Shown piece after piece: positions 18,670 to 24,223 of a stretch of DNA of 64,000 nucleotides. The notes below the pieces were generated by a model, which was not told where the DNA came from, ran no database searches, and was given only the letters and a program-made list of their open reading frames with translations. Made by a program: the position numbers and the translations under genes. Every line of letters begins with the position of its first letter. The stretch's first letter is position 1. This DNA comes from Aquisphaera giovannonii. GTDB taxonomy: Bacteria > Planctomycetota > Planctomycetia > Isosphaerales > Isosphaeraceae. Where the stretch lies: positions 2,108,001-2,172,000 of the forward strand of contig NZ_CP042997.1 in the NCBI RefSeq assembly GCF_008087625.1, written 5' to 3'.

Positions 18670-19527
18670 ATGAACGGAGATGCCCGTCCCCTCGCCAGGT
18701 CGGCCCGCCCGGGCAGCAGGACGCCTCAGGAGCACGCGCAGGTCATGATCGAACGGAATTACCTGTTCCCCGGCGTCATCGAGATGAACTACCAGTCTCG
18801 CCGCCGGATGGGCGTCAACGTCTACCTCATCGACGGCGGCACGGAGTATGCGCTGATCGACGTCGGCTTCCTGGACGAGCTGACCGACGTCCTCGAGCTG
18901 GTCCGGCAGATGAACTTCAGCCTCTCGGCCTGCAAGCTCATCGTCGCGAGCCACGCGGACGTCGACCACACCCAGGGCCTGGCCCGGGCGCGCGAGATCC
19001 TCAAGTGCCCGATCGCCGCGCATGCCCTGAGCATCCCCGCGATCGAGCAGGGGGACGAGATCTTCACGTTCGCCCGGATCGACGCCCAGGGCATCCACAT
19101 CCCGATGCCCCGCTGCAAGGTCGACCGGCCGATCGACGAGGGGGATAGGCTCCAGATCGGCGAGAGGACGCTGGAGGTCTGGAGCACCCCGGGCCACGCC
19201 GCCGGCCAGATCGCCCTCCGGATGGGGAACCTCCTCTTCTCCGGCGACAACATCTTCCGGGACGGCTCGGTGGGCGCGATCGACGCCCACCACGGCTCGA
19301 GCATCCCCGACTTCATCACCAGCCTCGAGCGCATACGGGCCAGCGACGTGGAGTTCCTGCTCCCCTCGCACGGCCCGATCTTCCGCAAGGACGACGCCCT
19401 GATCGACGCCACGATCCGCCGCCTCGAGTCGTATTCCCACATGGCGGACTTCGGCACCTGCGCGGTGGACTGGCCCCTCCTCGACCAGTGGGAGGAGGAG
19501 CTGGCGAGCGGGAGCCGGGACTTCTGA
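18670..19527 (+). CDS. MBL-fold metallo-hydrolase with an unusual HxDxDH metal motif
   Basis: A 285-residue metallo-beta-lactamase-fold hydrolase. The metal motif reads [10 protein letters not shown], so the second histidine of the usual HxHxDH is an aspartate (HxDxDH). Other ligands are present: STPGHAAGQ (histidine at about 177), FSGDNIF (bridging aspartate) and LPSHGPIF (last histidine). This resembles glyoxalase II and flavodiiron-related hydrolases, but the substrate is unknown. Start choice: 18670 gives a basic 25-residue leader, whereas an in-frame ATG at 18745 ([14 protein letters not shown]) begins where the fold begins and may be the true start. It is the first of a run of plus-strand metabolic genes. 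Confidence 0.75.
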
Positions 19528-19688: not shown

Positions 19689-21020
19689 ATGACGGCGCTC
19701 CACCGATCTGATCCCCGGATCCTCGGCCCGCTCCCGGGCCCCCTCGCCACGCGCTGGCTCCGGCGCGACGACGCGGTGATGTCGCCGTCCTACACGAGGA
19801 CCTATCCGCTGGTCGTCCGTCGCGGCTCCGGGGCGATGATCGAGGACGTGGACGGCAACCGGTTCCTCGACTTCACCGCCGGCATCGCGGTCACGAACGC
19901 CGGCCATTCCAACCGGAAGGTCGTCGAGGCGATCGCCCGCCAGGCCCGCCGGCTGATCCACATGTCCGGGACCGACTTCTACTACGAGCCGCAGGTCCGG
20001 CTGGCGGAGAGGCTCGCCCGGCGCGCCCCGGGGCCCGAGGCCAAGCGCGTCTTCTTCACCAACAGCGGCGCGGAGGCCGTCGAGGCGGCCCTCAAGCTGG
20101 CGCGGCGGCACACCGGCCGCAACCGCGCCATGGCCTTCCTCGGCGCCTTCCACGGGCGGACCTACGGGGCACTCTCGCTCTCGGGATCGAAGCCGCTCCA
20201 GCGCCGGGGCTTCGCGCCGCTCGTCCCGGAGATCCACCACGCGCGGTACGGCGACCTCGAGAGCGTCCGCGTCCTGCTGCGGTCGGTATGCCCGCCGGAG
20301 GAGCTCGCGGCGATCTTCGTGGAGCCGATCCAGGGCGAGGGGGGCTACGTCGTCCCGCCCGCCGGATTCCTGCCGGGCCTCCGGGCCCTCTGCGACGAGC
20401 ACGGCATCCTCCTGGTGCTGGACGAGGTCCAGAGCGGCTTCGGCCGGACCGGCAAGCTGTTCGCCTCGGAGCACTGGGGCGTCGCCGGGGACATCGTCTG
20501 CCTGGCGAAGGGGATCGCCAACGGGCTCCCCCTCGGGGCGATCGTCGCGAAGGCGGACGTGATGGACTGGCCCAGCGGGAGCCACGCCTCGACCTTCGGC
20601 GGCAATCCGGTGGCGTGCGCGGCGGCCCTGGCCTCGCTGAAGTTGATCGAGCGACGCTACCTGGCCAACTGCGTCCGGCGCGGCGTGCAGCTGCGTCTGG
20701 GCCTGGAGGCCATCGCCGCGGCCCGCACCCCGATCAAGGAGGTCCGCGGCCTGGGCCTCATGATCGGGGCCGAGATCCGCGGCGCGTCGGGCGAGCCCGA
20801 TCCGCACCTCCGCGACCGGATCATCGACCTGGCCTTCCATCGCGGGCTCCTGCTGCTGCCCTGCGGCCCGAGCACGATCCGGTTCTGCCCGCCCCTCTGC
20901 CTGACCCCTCGCCAGGTGGAGATCGGCCTCTCGATCCTCGACCGGGCGATCGAGGACGCCGCGCCGGGGGCCCTCGCCGAGGCCGGGCGGTCCGCCGGGC
21001 CGATGGCGAGGCCGGTGTGA
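19689..21020 (+). CDS. Class III PLP-dependent aminotransferase (acetylornithine / 4-aminobutyrate type)
   Basis: A 443-residue class III (omega) aminotransferase. Hallmarks are GNRFLDFTAGIAVTNAGHS, the phosphate-binding FTNSGAEAVEAALKLAR, GAFHGRTYGAL, the cofactor aspartate in LVLDEVQSGFGRTG, and the PLP lysine in CLAKGIANGLPLGA (about residue 272). The closing HASTFGGNPVACAAAL is also typical. The sequence fits 4-aminobutyrate, 5-aminovalerate, lysine or acetylornithine enzymes, and the motifs do not decide among them. GAAGGAGA lies just before the ATG. It may form an operon with the genes at 21170 and 22690 on the same strand (gaps of 149 and 92 bp), which would point to catabolism of an amino acid or amine. 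Confidence 0.85.
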   Translation: MTALHRSDPRILGPLPGPLATRWLRRDDAVMSPSYTRTYPLVVRRGSGAMIEDVDGNRFLDFTAGIAVTNAGHSNRKVVEAIARQARRLIHMSGTDFYYEPQVRLAERLARRAPGPEAKRVFFTNSGAEAVEAALKLARRHTGRNRAMAFLGAFHGRTYGALSLSGSKPLQRRGFAPLVPEIHHARYGDLESVRVLLRSVCPPEELAAIFVEPIQGEGGYVVPPAGFLPGLRALCDEHGILLVLDEVQSGFGRTGKLFASEHWGVAGDIVCLAKGIANGLPLGAIVAKADVMDWPSGSHASTFGGNPVACAAALASLKLIERRYLANCVRRGVQLRLGLEAIAAARTPIKEVRGLGLMIGAEIRGASGEPDPHLRDRIIDLAFHRGLLLLPCGPSTIRFCPPLCLTPRQVEIGLSILDRAIEDAAPGALAEAGRSAGPMARPV

Positions 21021-21169: not shown

Positions 21170-22597
21170 ATGCCCGCACTTACGGTACGCGAAGCGGACC
21201 GGTCATTCGAATGGCAGCGATGGCCCCAGGCCGAGGCCTTCGTGGGCCGGCTCATCGCCGGGGGCGTCGAGGGGAACCGCTTCGCGACCGGGCTCGCGGC
21301 CCGGCTTCCCGCCGAGACCGGCACGGCGTTGCCCGTCTGGGTCGATCACCTGGTGATCACCGGCGGCGGCTCGCTCGAACGGACGCTCGCCGGCCTCGGA
21401 TACGAGCGGGAGGCCATCAGGCACCCGCGCGGCGGCACCGTGCACGCCCATCGGGGCGGGCTCTTCCCGCGTATCGTCGTGCTGCCGGACGCGGGTGCGG
21501 CGGGCGAGGAGGGCGTCGGCGAGGTCGCGGAGGTCGCCATCAAGGTGGAATCGGTCGCGGATTTCGTCCGCGCCCACGACCTCGGGCTGGAGGTCGTCGG
21601 CCAGCCCATGGGGCCCTACCGCACCGCGACGGTCCCGGGGGAAGCGACCTCGTTCACGGCCCTGGAGCGGCGGGCGTATCGGGGCTTCGAGCCCTTCCCG
21701 GGCGACCTCGCGCGGGACGGGCGGATGAGGCCCCAGGCCGCGCGCGACGCCCTGGCGGCGCTGGACCTCTGGCGGGCGCGGAGGCGCCGCTTCGACGACG
21801 ACGGGGAGGGCATCCGCGCCACCCGGGCGACCCTCGAGCGCGCGATCGAGCTGGCCGGCGACAGGGACCTCGCCTGCCACCTGATCTTCCAGGCCGAGCG
21901 CGAATACTGGCAGTCCAGGAACCTCGCGGCGAGGGTGCAGAAGGAGCGGCAGGACCGGCTCGGCCTGGGCTGGGCGAACCATGATCACCACACCTTCCGC
22001 TGCTCGCGGCGGTCCTTCCCGGACATCATGGCCATGTTCATCCGGCTGGGATTCTCGCTCCGGGAGCGGTTCCACGCCGGCCGCCACGCCGGATGGGGCG
22101 CGCAGGTGCTGGAGCATGAGACGACCGGCATCGTCATCTTCGCCGACCTGGACCTGGCGCCCGAGGAGGCCACGCAGGACTTCGCCCGTCATCGCCTCGA
22201 GGACCTGCCGCGGCCGAGCACCGTCGGCCTCTGGGTCGCGCTCCACGGCGAGTCGATCCTGGACGCCGGGATGCACCACCTGGAGGCCCAGTTCGAGTTC
22301 GACGCCCTGAAGGAGGGGCTGGAGGAGGAGGCCGGGATCAAGACCATGGCCCCGTTCTCCGACTTCCCGTTCCTCCGCCAGGCGTTCACCGCGGGCGAGC
22401 GCTGGCCGGTGTCGAGGGCCCGCGCCGACCGGGCCCTCGCGATGGGGTACATCAGCGACGCCGAGCACGCGAAGTTCCTTCGCGACGGGGCGCTCGGCAG
22501 TCATCTCGAGAACCTCCAGCGTCGCGAGGGCTACAAGGGGTTCAACCAGCAGGCCGTCAGCGCGATCATCGCGGCGACGGATCCGCGGTTGCACTGA
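21170..22597 (+). CDS. Unrecognised two-half protein with VOC-like metal-site motifs
   Basis: A 475-residue protein I cannot assign to a family. The start at 21170 is set by an excellent ribosome site (GGGGGAGGAG) five bases upstream; the open frame upstream is a shadow of the aminotransferase gene. The N-terminal half has LPVWVDHLVITGGGSLER followed by LAGLGYERE. The C-terminal half has a related pattern, GWANHDHHTFRCSRRSF, then IRLGFSLRERFHAG. A buried D/N-H pair, a short helix and a 'LGF/LGY' strand recall vicinal-oxygen-chelate (glyoxalase/dioxygenase) repeats. DUF1338 2-oxoadipate dioxygenases are a possible distant relation, but their exact motifs are not seen. Genes on both sides are catabolic enzymes, so it may be a metal-dependent oxygenase or lyase. 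Confidence 0.6.
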   Translation: MPALTVREADRSFEWQRWPQAEAFVGRLIAGGVEGNRFATGLAARLPAETGTALPVWVDHLVITGGGSLERTLAGLGYEREAIRHPRGGTVHAHRGGLFPRIVVLPDAGAAGEEGVGEVAEVAIKVESVADFVRAHDLGLEVVGQPMGPYRTATVPGEATSFTALERRAYRGFEPFPGDLARDGRMRPQAARDALAALDLWRARRRRFDDDGEGIRATRATLERAIELAGDRDLACHLIFQAEREYWQSRNLAARVQKERQDRLGLGWANHDHHTFRCSRRSFPDIMAMFIRLGFSLRERFHAGRHAGWGAQVLEHETTGIVIFADLDLAPEEATQDFARHRLEDLPRPSTVGLWVALHGESILDAGMHHLEAQFEFDALKEGLEEEAGIKTMAPFSDFPFLRQAFTAGERWPVSRARADRALAMGYISDAEHAKFLRDGALGSHLENLQRREGYKGFNQQAVSAIIAATDPRLH

Positions 22598-22689: not shown

Positions 22690-23478
22690 ATGCCCGATCC
22701 CCTGGTAATTCGCTCGGATGACAGCGTGGTGGCCGTCCTCACGCTCAACCGCCCGGCCAAGCGGAACGCCCTCTCCCGGGCCCTGATGCACGAGCTCGAG
22801 GATCACCTGGACCGCGCGGCGAGCGAATCGAGGGTCCGCGCGGTGGTCATCACCGGCGCCGGCACGGCGTTCTGCTCGGGCATGGACCTCGGCGAGGCCG
22901 CCCGGGGCGGCACGAGTGCCGAGGCCGAGGGCTACGCCGTCGCCACGCTGCAGGAGTACGCGGACCTGCTCCAGAAGGTCCACACCCTCCCCAAGCTGAC
23001 GATCGCGGCGGTGAACGGCGATGCCCTGGCCGGCGGCGCCGGCCTGATGTCGGCGTGCGACCTGGCCATCGCCGCGACCTCGGCGCGGATCGGCTACCCG
23101 GAGGTGTTGCGGGGCCTCGTCCCGTCCACCGTGATGCACGACCTGACCCGCCTGATCGGAGGCCGCCGCGCGCGGCACCTGCTGCTCACCGGCGGGCTGA
23201 TCCTGGCCGACGCGGCCCACGAGTGGGGCCTCGTCAACCTGGTGACGCAGCCCGAGAACTGCCTCAAGGAGTCGATCCGGACGGGCAAGCAGATGATCGA
23301 GTCGGCGCCGCAGGCCGTGGCGGCGATCAAGCGCCAGCTCGACGAGGTCGAGGGCCGGCCCAGGAGCCTCCGCGGCGCGGCCGCCGTCAGCGCCGCCATC
23401 CGCGTCGGTGAGGAGGCACAGGAGGGCGTCCGGGCGTTCCTGGAGAAGCGGCCTCCGCGGTGGGCGCAGTCGCCGTAA
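22690..23478 (+). CDS. Enoyl-CoA hydratase/isomerase-family protein
   Basis: A 262-residue crotonase-fold enzyme acting on acyl-CoA thioesters. The N-terminal LNRPAKRNALSRALMHEL, the oxyanion-hole segments GTAFCSGMDLGEA (about residues 58-70) and AAVNGDALAGGAGLMSACDL, and the C-terminal trimerisation helix are all present. At the usual hydratase glutamate positions the sequence reads GGAGLMSACD and YPEVLRGLVP; the second keeps one acidic residue (PEV), which fits a hydratase or isomerase. The substrate cannot be read from sequence. Ribosome site GGAGTCAGGA precedes the ATG. It follows the aminotransferase and the unrecognised gene on the same strand. Confidence 0.85.
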   Translation: MPDPLVIRSDDSVVAVLTLNRPAKRNALSRALMHELEDHLDRAASESRVRAVVITGAGTAFCSGMDLGEAARGGTSAEAEGYAVATLQEYADLLQKVHTLPKLTIAAVNGDALAGGAGLMSACDLAIAATSARIGYPEVLRGLVPSTVMHDLTRLIGGRRARHLLLTGGLILADAAHEWGLVNLVTQPENCLKESIRTGKQMIESAPQAVAAIKRQLDEVEGRPRSLRGAAAVSAAIRVGEEAQEGVRAFLEKRPPRWAQSP

Positions 23479-23610: not shown

Positions 23611-23674
23611 CCTGTGGACTCGGGCTTCCAATACTCCGTCGTGTTTGTGAAAGAAATACCCTGCGGAGGTGATC

Positions 23675-24223
23675 ATGTCACATGTGCATCCTTTGCAGCG
23701 CGCCATTTTCGATGGGGACTGCGAGCGCATCGATGCTCTTCTTGCAGGGCGTGATCCCAATGTAACAACTGAGGATAGCGATAAATGGAACCTGCTGCAT
23801 TTGGCGTTGGTAGGTGTGAGTAGGCCACCAAGGCCCGAGGTCGTCCGACATCTGATCGAGCTTGGCGTGGACGTCAACGCAAGAGATCGTCGCCAGTGGA
23901 CGCCCCTGCATTTCGCCGCCAGGACCAAGAACCCGGCAGTTGTCAAACTTCTGATCGATGCGGGGGCGGACGTCAATGCGATGAATGACGAAGGGATCAC
24001 CCCATTGCACGAAAGTCTCGCTGAATACCCGGTGAACCTGAAACTGACCGAGATTTTTCTCGCCGCCGGTGCGAAGACGGATATTCTGCGCAAGTACGTG
24101 GACGTCGTCGTAAGCCCGGTCAAGAGAGAGTTGCTTGACCTGCTAGCGAAGCATGAGTCACGCGGCTTGCTCGACGAGGCCGAACGGGTGTCATCGCCGC
24201 CAAGGCAGGATGATCAAGGATAA
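23675..24223 (+). CDS. Ankyrin-repeat protein
   Basis: A 182-residue protein of three to four ankyrin repeats, a protein-protein interaction fold. The consensus is clear in DRRQWTPLHFAARTKN followed by VVKLLIDAGADVNAMND, and in GITPLHESLAEYP; weaker repeats lie before (KWNLLHLAL) and after. There is no signal peptide or membrane segment, so it is probably cytoplasmic. GGAGG lies six bases before the ATG at 23675. Codon use is visibly less GC-biased than in neighbours (codons such as ACA, GAT, AAA and TTG are frequent), and it sits between two inverted palindromic repeats. Both features suggest it arrived by transfer. Confidence 0.8.
   Translation: MSHVHPLQRAIFDGDCERIDALLAGRDPNVTTEDSDKWNLLHLALVGVSRPPRPEVVRHLIELGVDVNARDRRQWTPLHFAARTKNPAVVKLLIDAGADVNAMNDEGITPLHESLAEYPVNLKLTEIFLAAGAKTDILRKYVDVVVSPVKRELLDLLAKHESRGLLDEAERVSSPPRQDDQG

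Follow-up and report, generated by a model that had tools for sequence, protein, structure and literature searches.

The HglS, FLO7, and YdcJ proteins (2-oxoadipate dioxygenase-decarboxylase, or hydroxyglutarate synthase; PF07063, formerly DUF1338) are the closest described systems to the gene studied here. The metal ligands of the Pseudomonas putida HglS are His70, His226, and Glu294, Arg74 binds the far carboxylate of 2-oxoadipate, and 3LHO, 3IUZ, and 2RJB are named as DUF1338 structures (PMC7286885). A second HglS family, or the lysine catabolism of Planctomycetes, was found in none of the matches listed in a search of the open-licence PubMed Central. 4-Hydroxyphenylpyruvate dioxygenase (HPPD) is composed of two VOC domains with the metal site in the second only, and its N-terminal domain has a role in structure, dimerisation, or substrate gating.

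In our study, a stretch of 64,000 nucleotides of Aquisphaera giovannonii (hereafter the window) was found to contain a gene for a two-domain VOC protein, lying, as the preliminary description had stated, between an aminotransferase and an enoyl-CoA hydratase, both of which were matched by Pfam (Table 1). The gene is real and conserved; one copy was present in the window's genome, and a GGAGGAG stretch resembling a ribosome site lies directly 5' of its ATG. The protein had zero matches in Pfam and NCBIfam at E up to 1, and searches of the PDB sequences, Pfam, and NCBIfam with the protein or its profiles returned only noise. A search of plasmids returned nothing. We propose that the protein is probably a two-domain relative of HglS, which would convert 2-oxoadipate and O2 to 2-hydroxyglutarate and CO2. 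The HglS-like fold predicted for both halves and the lysine-breakdown genes often found among its neighbors in other bacteria suggest that it probably takes over the role of HglS where the latter is missing. The best-supported reading is that it works like HglS yet is no member of PF07063 as curated. With this proposal, a family without a Pfam or NCBIfam model gains a concrete, testable function; if it is true, the two-substrate 2-oxoacid oxygenases, which form a small group, gain a further member.

Table 1. Positions of the two-domain VOC gene, its presumed functional parts, and its flanking genes in the window.
Feature	Position	Strand	Basis
Class III aminotransferase	19689..21020	+	149 bp upstream of the two-domain gene; PF00202, E 8.8e-118; NF004426 (PRK05769)
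Gene of the two-domain VOC protein, 475 aa	21170..22597	+	ORF (ATG at 21170, stop ending at 22597), homologues, AlphaFold2 model
N-half, residues 12–228, predicted VOC pair of DUF1338 fold	21203..21853	+	Half folded alone, pLDDT 92.0
C-half, residues 229–475, predicted VOC pair of DUF1338/HglS fold, presumed metal site	21854..22594	+	Whole-model comparison
H273-H274-T275-F276-R277, with H273 as presumed first metal His and R277 as presumed distal-carboxylate Arg	21986..22000	+	Conservation; HglS spacing (PMC7286885)
H369-H370, presumed second metal His (H370)	22274..22279	+	61/61, 17/17
E447, presumed third metal ligand, in the C-half (second module, last strand)	22508..22510	+	61/61, 17/17; strand 447–451
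Enoyl-CoA hydratase	22690..23478	+	Downstream of the two-domain gene; PF00378, E 6e-55

Out of 85 stretches from the homologue search, the best 80 were retained, which represented 79 distinct loci. Judged by their titles, these belonged mostly to the Planctomycetota and Chlamydiota, together with the Verrucomicrobiota, KSB1, and Peregrinibacteria. The window protein was aligned with the members of 60 of the 79 loci (61 rows), and 19 loci were omitted by hand (close copies, partials, and a few others). The identity to the window protein ranged between 41 and 81%, and in the tree of the 61 rows the window paired with Aquisphaera insulae within the Isosphaeraceae. No credible Pfam family was found among the 61 members, and the weak matches varied from member to member.

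The AlphaFold2 model of the protein (pLDDT 93.3, pTM 0.91) contained two tandem VOC domains, whereas HglS has one. The VOC beta-alpha-beta-beta-beta pattern was present four times, with two modules per half, and in the second module one strand was shrunk to a single residue. The C-half was compared through the whole model (aligned residues about 190–475); for the N-half, a separate model of this half was used in the comparison. In VIA-align 2, the highest match of the whole model was 6w1k, the rice hydroxyglutarate synthase (Z 16.1, 208 aligned, 3.0 Å, residues 230–475), followed by 3iuz (Z 15.6, 216 aligned, 4.1 Å, residues 190–461) and 3lho (Z 14.9, 194 aligned, 3.3 Å, residues 220–460). The next rows were those of hydroxymandelate synthase (HMS; Z 12.5 and 12.3) and of the long DUF1338 structures 2rjb, 6w1g, and 6w1h, which were tied at 12.0–11.8. 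The N-half alone was matched best by 3iuz (Z 12.8, 157 aligned, 2.7 Å), 3lho (12.1), and 6w1k (11.6), followed by 6w1g, 2rjb, HMS, and HPPD at about 8. Both halves are thus predicted to fold like HglS, in the VOC fold of the DUF1338 type. A comparison with the VOC and DUF1338 structures had been suggested earlier, along with the possibility of an enzyme other than DUF1338; two VOC-type halves were obtained, and the latter doubt runs against the best VIA-align matches, which are DUF1338 proteins. The suggested internal VOC repeat was recovered in the predicted structure, where DUF1338 proteins are the top matches of both halves, but not in the sequence, where no similarity between the N-half and the C-half was detectable by hhalign (probability 0.8), so that the repeat is structural only.

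In Foldseek, HPPD and HMS were the first matches of the whole model (E 1e-10) but with a TM of about 0.25, and none of the 50 matches listed for the whole model or for the N-half was a DUF1338 structure. In VIA-align, by contrast, HPPD and HMS (Z about 12 with the whole model and 8 with the N-half) were placed below the short DUF1338 structures for both halves, and the neighbors of the protein include lysine genes. The plan of HPPD is similar to that of our protein, with two VOC domains and a metal site, presumed in our protein, in the second only; if the proposal is true, the arrangement seen in HPPD, in which one VOC domain is silent and the other catalytic, has a second case on the DUF1338 frame.

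The methylmalonyl-CoA epimerases and one glyoxalase, which have the VOC module in common with the protein, matched the whole model at lower scores (Z 8.1–8.5), and the chains of this type contain 129–151 residues compared with 475. VOC folds serve many reactions, and these matches would suit a protein that has the VOC fold alone in common with HglS and whose chemistry is another one, such as that of an isomerase, a lyase, or an extradiol-type dioxygenase. Such a protein is improbable, as the short DUF1338 structures scored far higher (Z 14.9–16.1 with the whole model and 11.6–12.8 with the N-half), H273 and R277 are invariant, and the lysine-gene neighbors recur in several phyla.

For the comparison of profiles, 30 DUF1338 loci (L110–L139) were used, and motifs served to select 14 short proteins and 14 long ones; two loci (L129 and L133) were unrecognised and were dropped. 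The short proteins were all from Planctomycetota and were picked by NDH[IV]A[FL]RT, so that this motif partly reflects the selection; the second motif, [AV]NHFT, was present in 14/14 of them. The decoys (n = 150) consisted of 149 column shuffles and one reversal. The N-half profile matched the 14 short DUF1338 proteins with a score of 40.8, above the decoy maximum of 24.2 (n = 150), whereas the C-half profile scored 23.6, inside the decoy range (maximum 27.2, n = 150). The profile of the 14 long proteins did not match the protein, and PF07063 matched neither the window protein nor any of the 61 members at E≤1; for the DUF1338 family as curated, the earlier doubt was thus right. In a low-stringency profile alignment, DHHTFR fell on the first motif of the short DUF1338 proteins, GLW.ALHG and AAW...HG coincided just ahead of the second histidine, and the final GFNQ..VS.II..TD was set on GF.A.SADKIF.STD. 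H370 was matched by eye to the histidine of NHF in the short DUF1338 proteins.

The '[DN]H ... LG[YF]' motif noted in the preliminary description is real in each half, the N-half containing V-D59-H60-L ... L-G-Y and the C-half D272-H273-H274 ... L-G-F. Its conservation goes beyond chance: D272, H273, H274, T275, and R277 were invariant in 61/61 members, whereas D59 and H60 were conserved in 58/61 and 49/61, respectively. The H369, H370, E372, and E447 residues were also invariant (61/61). In 17 further members, H273, H274, R277, H369, H370, and E447 were kept in 17/17. E372 was considered as a metal ligand and was rejected, being substituted by Ala in 7/17 of these members. The spacing of four residues from H273 to R277 is that of His70 and Arg74 in HglS, and the H-x-x-x-R followed by a His and then a Glu appears to be in the same order in both proteins. 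The earlier remark that the DUF1338 motifs are not visible and that this may be a different enzyme is not supported, since the H-x-x-x-R spacing of the HglS type is found here and is invariant. On the basis of conservation and order, and of their places on VOC strands, H273, H370, and E447 are presumed to be the candidate metal ligands, and R277 is presumed to be the candidate distal-carboxylate arginine.

The N-half differs from HglS in having no full metal triad. Its E166 was conserved in 61/61 members and lost in 2/17 of the further members (L190 and L192), and no histidine was seen at the second ligand position among the 61 aligned members. The conservation of the histidines, named earlier as a check, holds for H273 in the C-half (61/61) and fails for the N-half, where H60 is incompletely conserved (49/61) and the second His is absent. 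The N-half probably does not bind a metal, and with H60 incompletely conserved and no second His, the catalytic site is most likely confined to the C-half. A non-catalytic protein with a structural or regulatory role, as might be read from the incomplete triad of the N-half and from two divergent members (L196 and L197) that have lost presumed catalytic residues, is very unlikely in view of the presumed catalytic residues being invariant in 61/61 and 17/17 members.

These two divergent members are shorter (L196, 8961–10151; L197, 9096–10316), with 26 and 31% identity, respectively. In L196, R277 was replaced by Trp, whereas in L197 the H369-H370 pair was lost; E447 was replaced in both, with a Glu three residues later in each. 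The function of these two members may have been changed or lost.

In the proposed mechanism of the two-domain HglS relative, Fe(II) would be held in the C-half by the candidate ligands H273, H370, and E447. The 2-oxo acid end of 2-oxoadipate would chelate the metal, and R277 would grip the far carboxylate. Reaction with O2 would lead to decarboxylation and intramolecular hydroxylation, in the direction of 2-hydroxyglutarate and CO2. The N-half, having the same predicted fold without a full metal site, would probably serve in structure, dimerisation, or substrate gating, like the N-terminal domain of HPPD. In the pathway, lysine would be converted to 2-aminoadipate semialdehyde, via saccharopine or by an aminotransferase, followed by its conversion to 2-aminoadipate by a dehydrogenase and to 2-oxoadipate by an aminotransferase. 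The two-domain protein would convert 2-oxoadipate to 2-hydroxyglutarate, which would be converted to 2-oxoglutarate by an FAD enzyme.

The neighboring genes were examined in the 79 loci, 20 further regions, and the window. At least one lysine-type neighbor was found in 37/79 loci, and in the other 42/79 none was present in the flanking DNA examined. The likeness to HglS extends to lysine-catabolism neighbors in several lineages, and the lysine-type route through a 2-oxoadipate-dioxygenase-like enzyme near an aminotransferase, put forward earlier, draws support from the fold matches and the neighbor genes. A class III aminotransferase homologue was located near the gene in 23/79 loci, in the window, and in L198. 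In L181 and L182, the gene is immediately preceded by an aminotransferase of class I/II, which is unrelated. The window aminotransferase scored 564 bits with NF004426 against the cut-off of 552, and we propose that it is a lysine or 2-aminoadipate aminotransferase. A saccharopine dehydrogenase was located near the gene in L033, L035, L051, L071, and L072 (5/79), and was checked by Pfam in L035 and L071. None of the 79 loci contained both the class III aminotransferase and the saccharopine dehydrogenase, and for this reason we read them as two alternative ways in which lysine reaches the semialdehyde.

The L-piperidine-6-carboxylate dehydrogenase (hereafter the piperidine enzyme) was found over its 730-bit cut-off and within 4 kb of the gene in L033, L035, L051, and L070 (4/79). 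In the phylum sample, the gene is accompanied by the piperidine enzyme (E≤1e-100) in 24 genomes; the two are 1.4–1.6 kb apart in at least 12 of these, placed elsewhere in seven, and without a listed place in five. The 12 genomes belong to four genera of two families, nine of them to one genus. In both fully read cases (L191 and L192), the gap between the two genes is filled by a saccharopine dehydrogenase. Other aldehyde dehydrogenases were found near the gene in L030 and L071; in L071 the order is aldehyde dehydrogenase, two-domain gene, and saccharopine dehydrogenase, and in L030 it is aminotransferase, aldehyde dehydrogenase, and two-domain gene. A fusion of the last two in L030, which lie in one open frame, was considered and rejected, as a run of N separates them.

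A YdiJ-like D-2-hydroxyglutarate dehydrogenase was present within 1.2 kb of the gene in 8/79 loci. It lies downstream on the same strand in L047, L052, and L068 and is convergent in the other five (L046, L055, L058, L067, and L078). A YdiJ-like gene was also found 5.7 kb off in L040 and adjoining the gene on the same strand in L199. The neighbors in L046 and L058 were checked with the model, and the scores of the YdiJ-like neighbors, including that of L199, were under the YdiJ equivalog cut-off. In four Chlamydiota loci (L046, L058, L067, and L078), the YdiJ-like neighbor lies beside arginine succinyltransferase pathway genes, namely astB and astD in L046 and L058, astD in L067, and astB in L078.

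An acyl-CoA carboxylase subunit homologue was found 3' of the gene in 9/79 loci and an enoyl-CoA hydratase near it in the window and 4/79 loci, which possibly indicates a leucine-type neighborhood. With its fold and its Fe(II)- and O2-dependent chemistry unchanged from the proposal, the protein might act on another 2-oxo acid from the neighboring aminotransferase, for example 2-oxoisocaproate from leucine, which would give 3-hydroxyisovalerate, or a compound similar to 2-oxoadipate; in the window's genome, no piperidine-6-carboxylate dehydrogenase over the cut-off and no match to one saccharopine dehydrogenase query was found. We consider such a substrate rather unlikely. The invariant R277 takes the position of the distal-carboxylate arginine of HglS, and 2-oxoisocaproate has no distal carboxylate; the lysine genes are neighbors in other lineages; and the neighboring aminotransferase is of class III and not of a branched-chain type. 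The enoyl-CoA hydratase of the window is a neighbor in few relatives and probably has a function separate from the two-domain protein. In L002, L010, and L024, an acyl-CoA carboxylase-type gene comes after the two-domain gene, with the enoyl-CoA hydratase further on, whereas in the window and L027 the enoyl-CoA hydratase alone adjoins it.

The co-occurrence with HglS was studied in 392 genomes of Planctomycetota, where PF07063 was found in 31 and the two-domain family in 49, with both in one genome only. The overlap expected by chance was about 4, and the probability of one or fewer was 0.078, which is not significant alone. The one shared genome (G151) contains a full DUF1338 protein and the divergent copy of L196. 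PF07063 was found in none of 45 other carrier genomes, whose completeness is unstated, nor was it found in the window's genome; it was thus absent from nearly all sampled carriers. In the window's class, 13 genomes contained the piperidine enzyme (E≤1e-100), of which 12 carried the two-domain family and one PF07063. We lean slightly toward the view that an undescribed lineage of two-domain 2-oxoadipate dioxygenases replaces DUF1338/HglS in many Planctomycetota, Chlamydiota, and Verrucomicrobiota and a few other phyla. If so, the missing last step of lysine degradation would be supplied in bacteria without HglS.

The piperidine enzyme was present in 29/45 genomes of the window's order, and 28 of these 29 also contained the two-domain gene; this co-occurrence is uninformative, since the gene is present in 42/45 genomes of the order anyway. 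Phylum-wide, the carriers were not enriched in the piperidine enzyme (24/49 compared with 217/392). In the window's genome, no piperidine-6-carboxylate dehydrogenase was over the cut-off (best 270 bits) and one saccharopine dehydrogenase query had no match; a different dehydrogenase would therefore be needed there, or 2-oxoadipate would have to be supplied in some other way. The genome contains several other aldehyde dehydrogenases and three matches to the YdiJ model, all under the cut-off. The piperidine enzyme was not found over the cut-off in a congener (G001) either, and the aldehyde dehydrogenase of the L030 type was found at E≤1e-120 in 0/45 genomes of the order, the window's genome included. 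Among the Chlamydiota carrier genomes, counted from titles, 0/27 contained the piperidine enzyme at E≤1e-150.

The gene is also carried by genomes of one further family (f46), with 14 rows in the phylum sample; three of them (L180–L182) were read and had a G+C of 0.42–0.43, and the piperidine enzyme was absent from all 14 at E≤1e-100. Two contigs labelled Candidatus Kuenenia (L026 and L028; G+C 0.51) contained the gene as well. An O2-dependent enzyme would be odd in these carriers if they are anaerobic. In the window, a metallo-beta-lactamase-fold hydrolase (18670–19527; PF00753, E 4.6e-21) lies on the same strand, 5' of the aminotransferase, and has a weak likeness to the subclass B3 models, with scores far under the cut-offs. 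A small ORF at 23669–24223 has, by eye, the look of ankyrin repeats.
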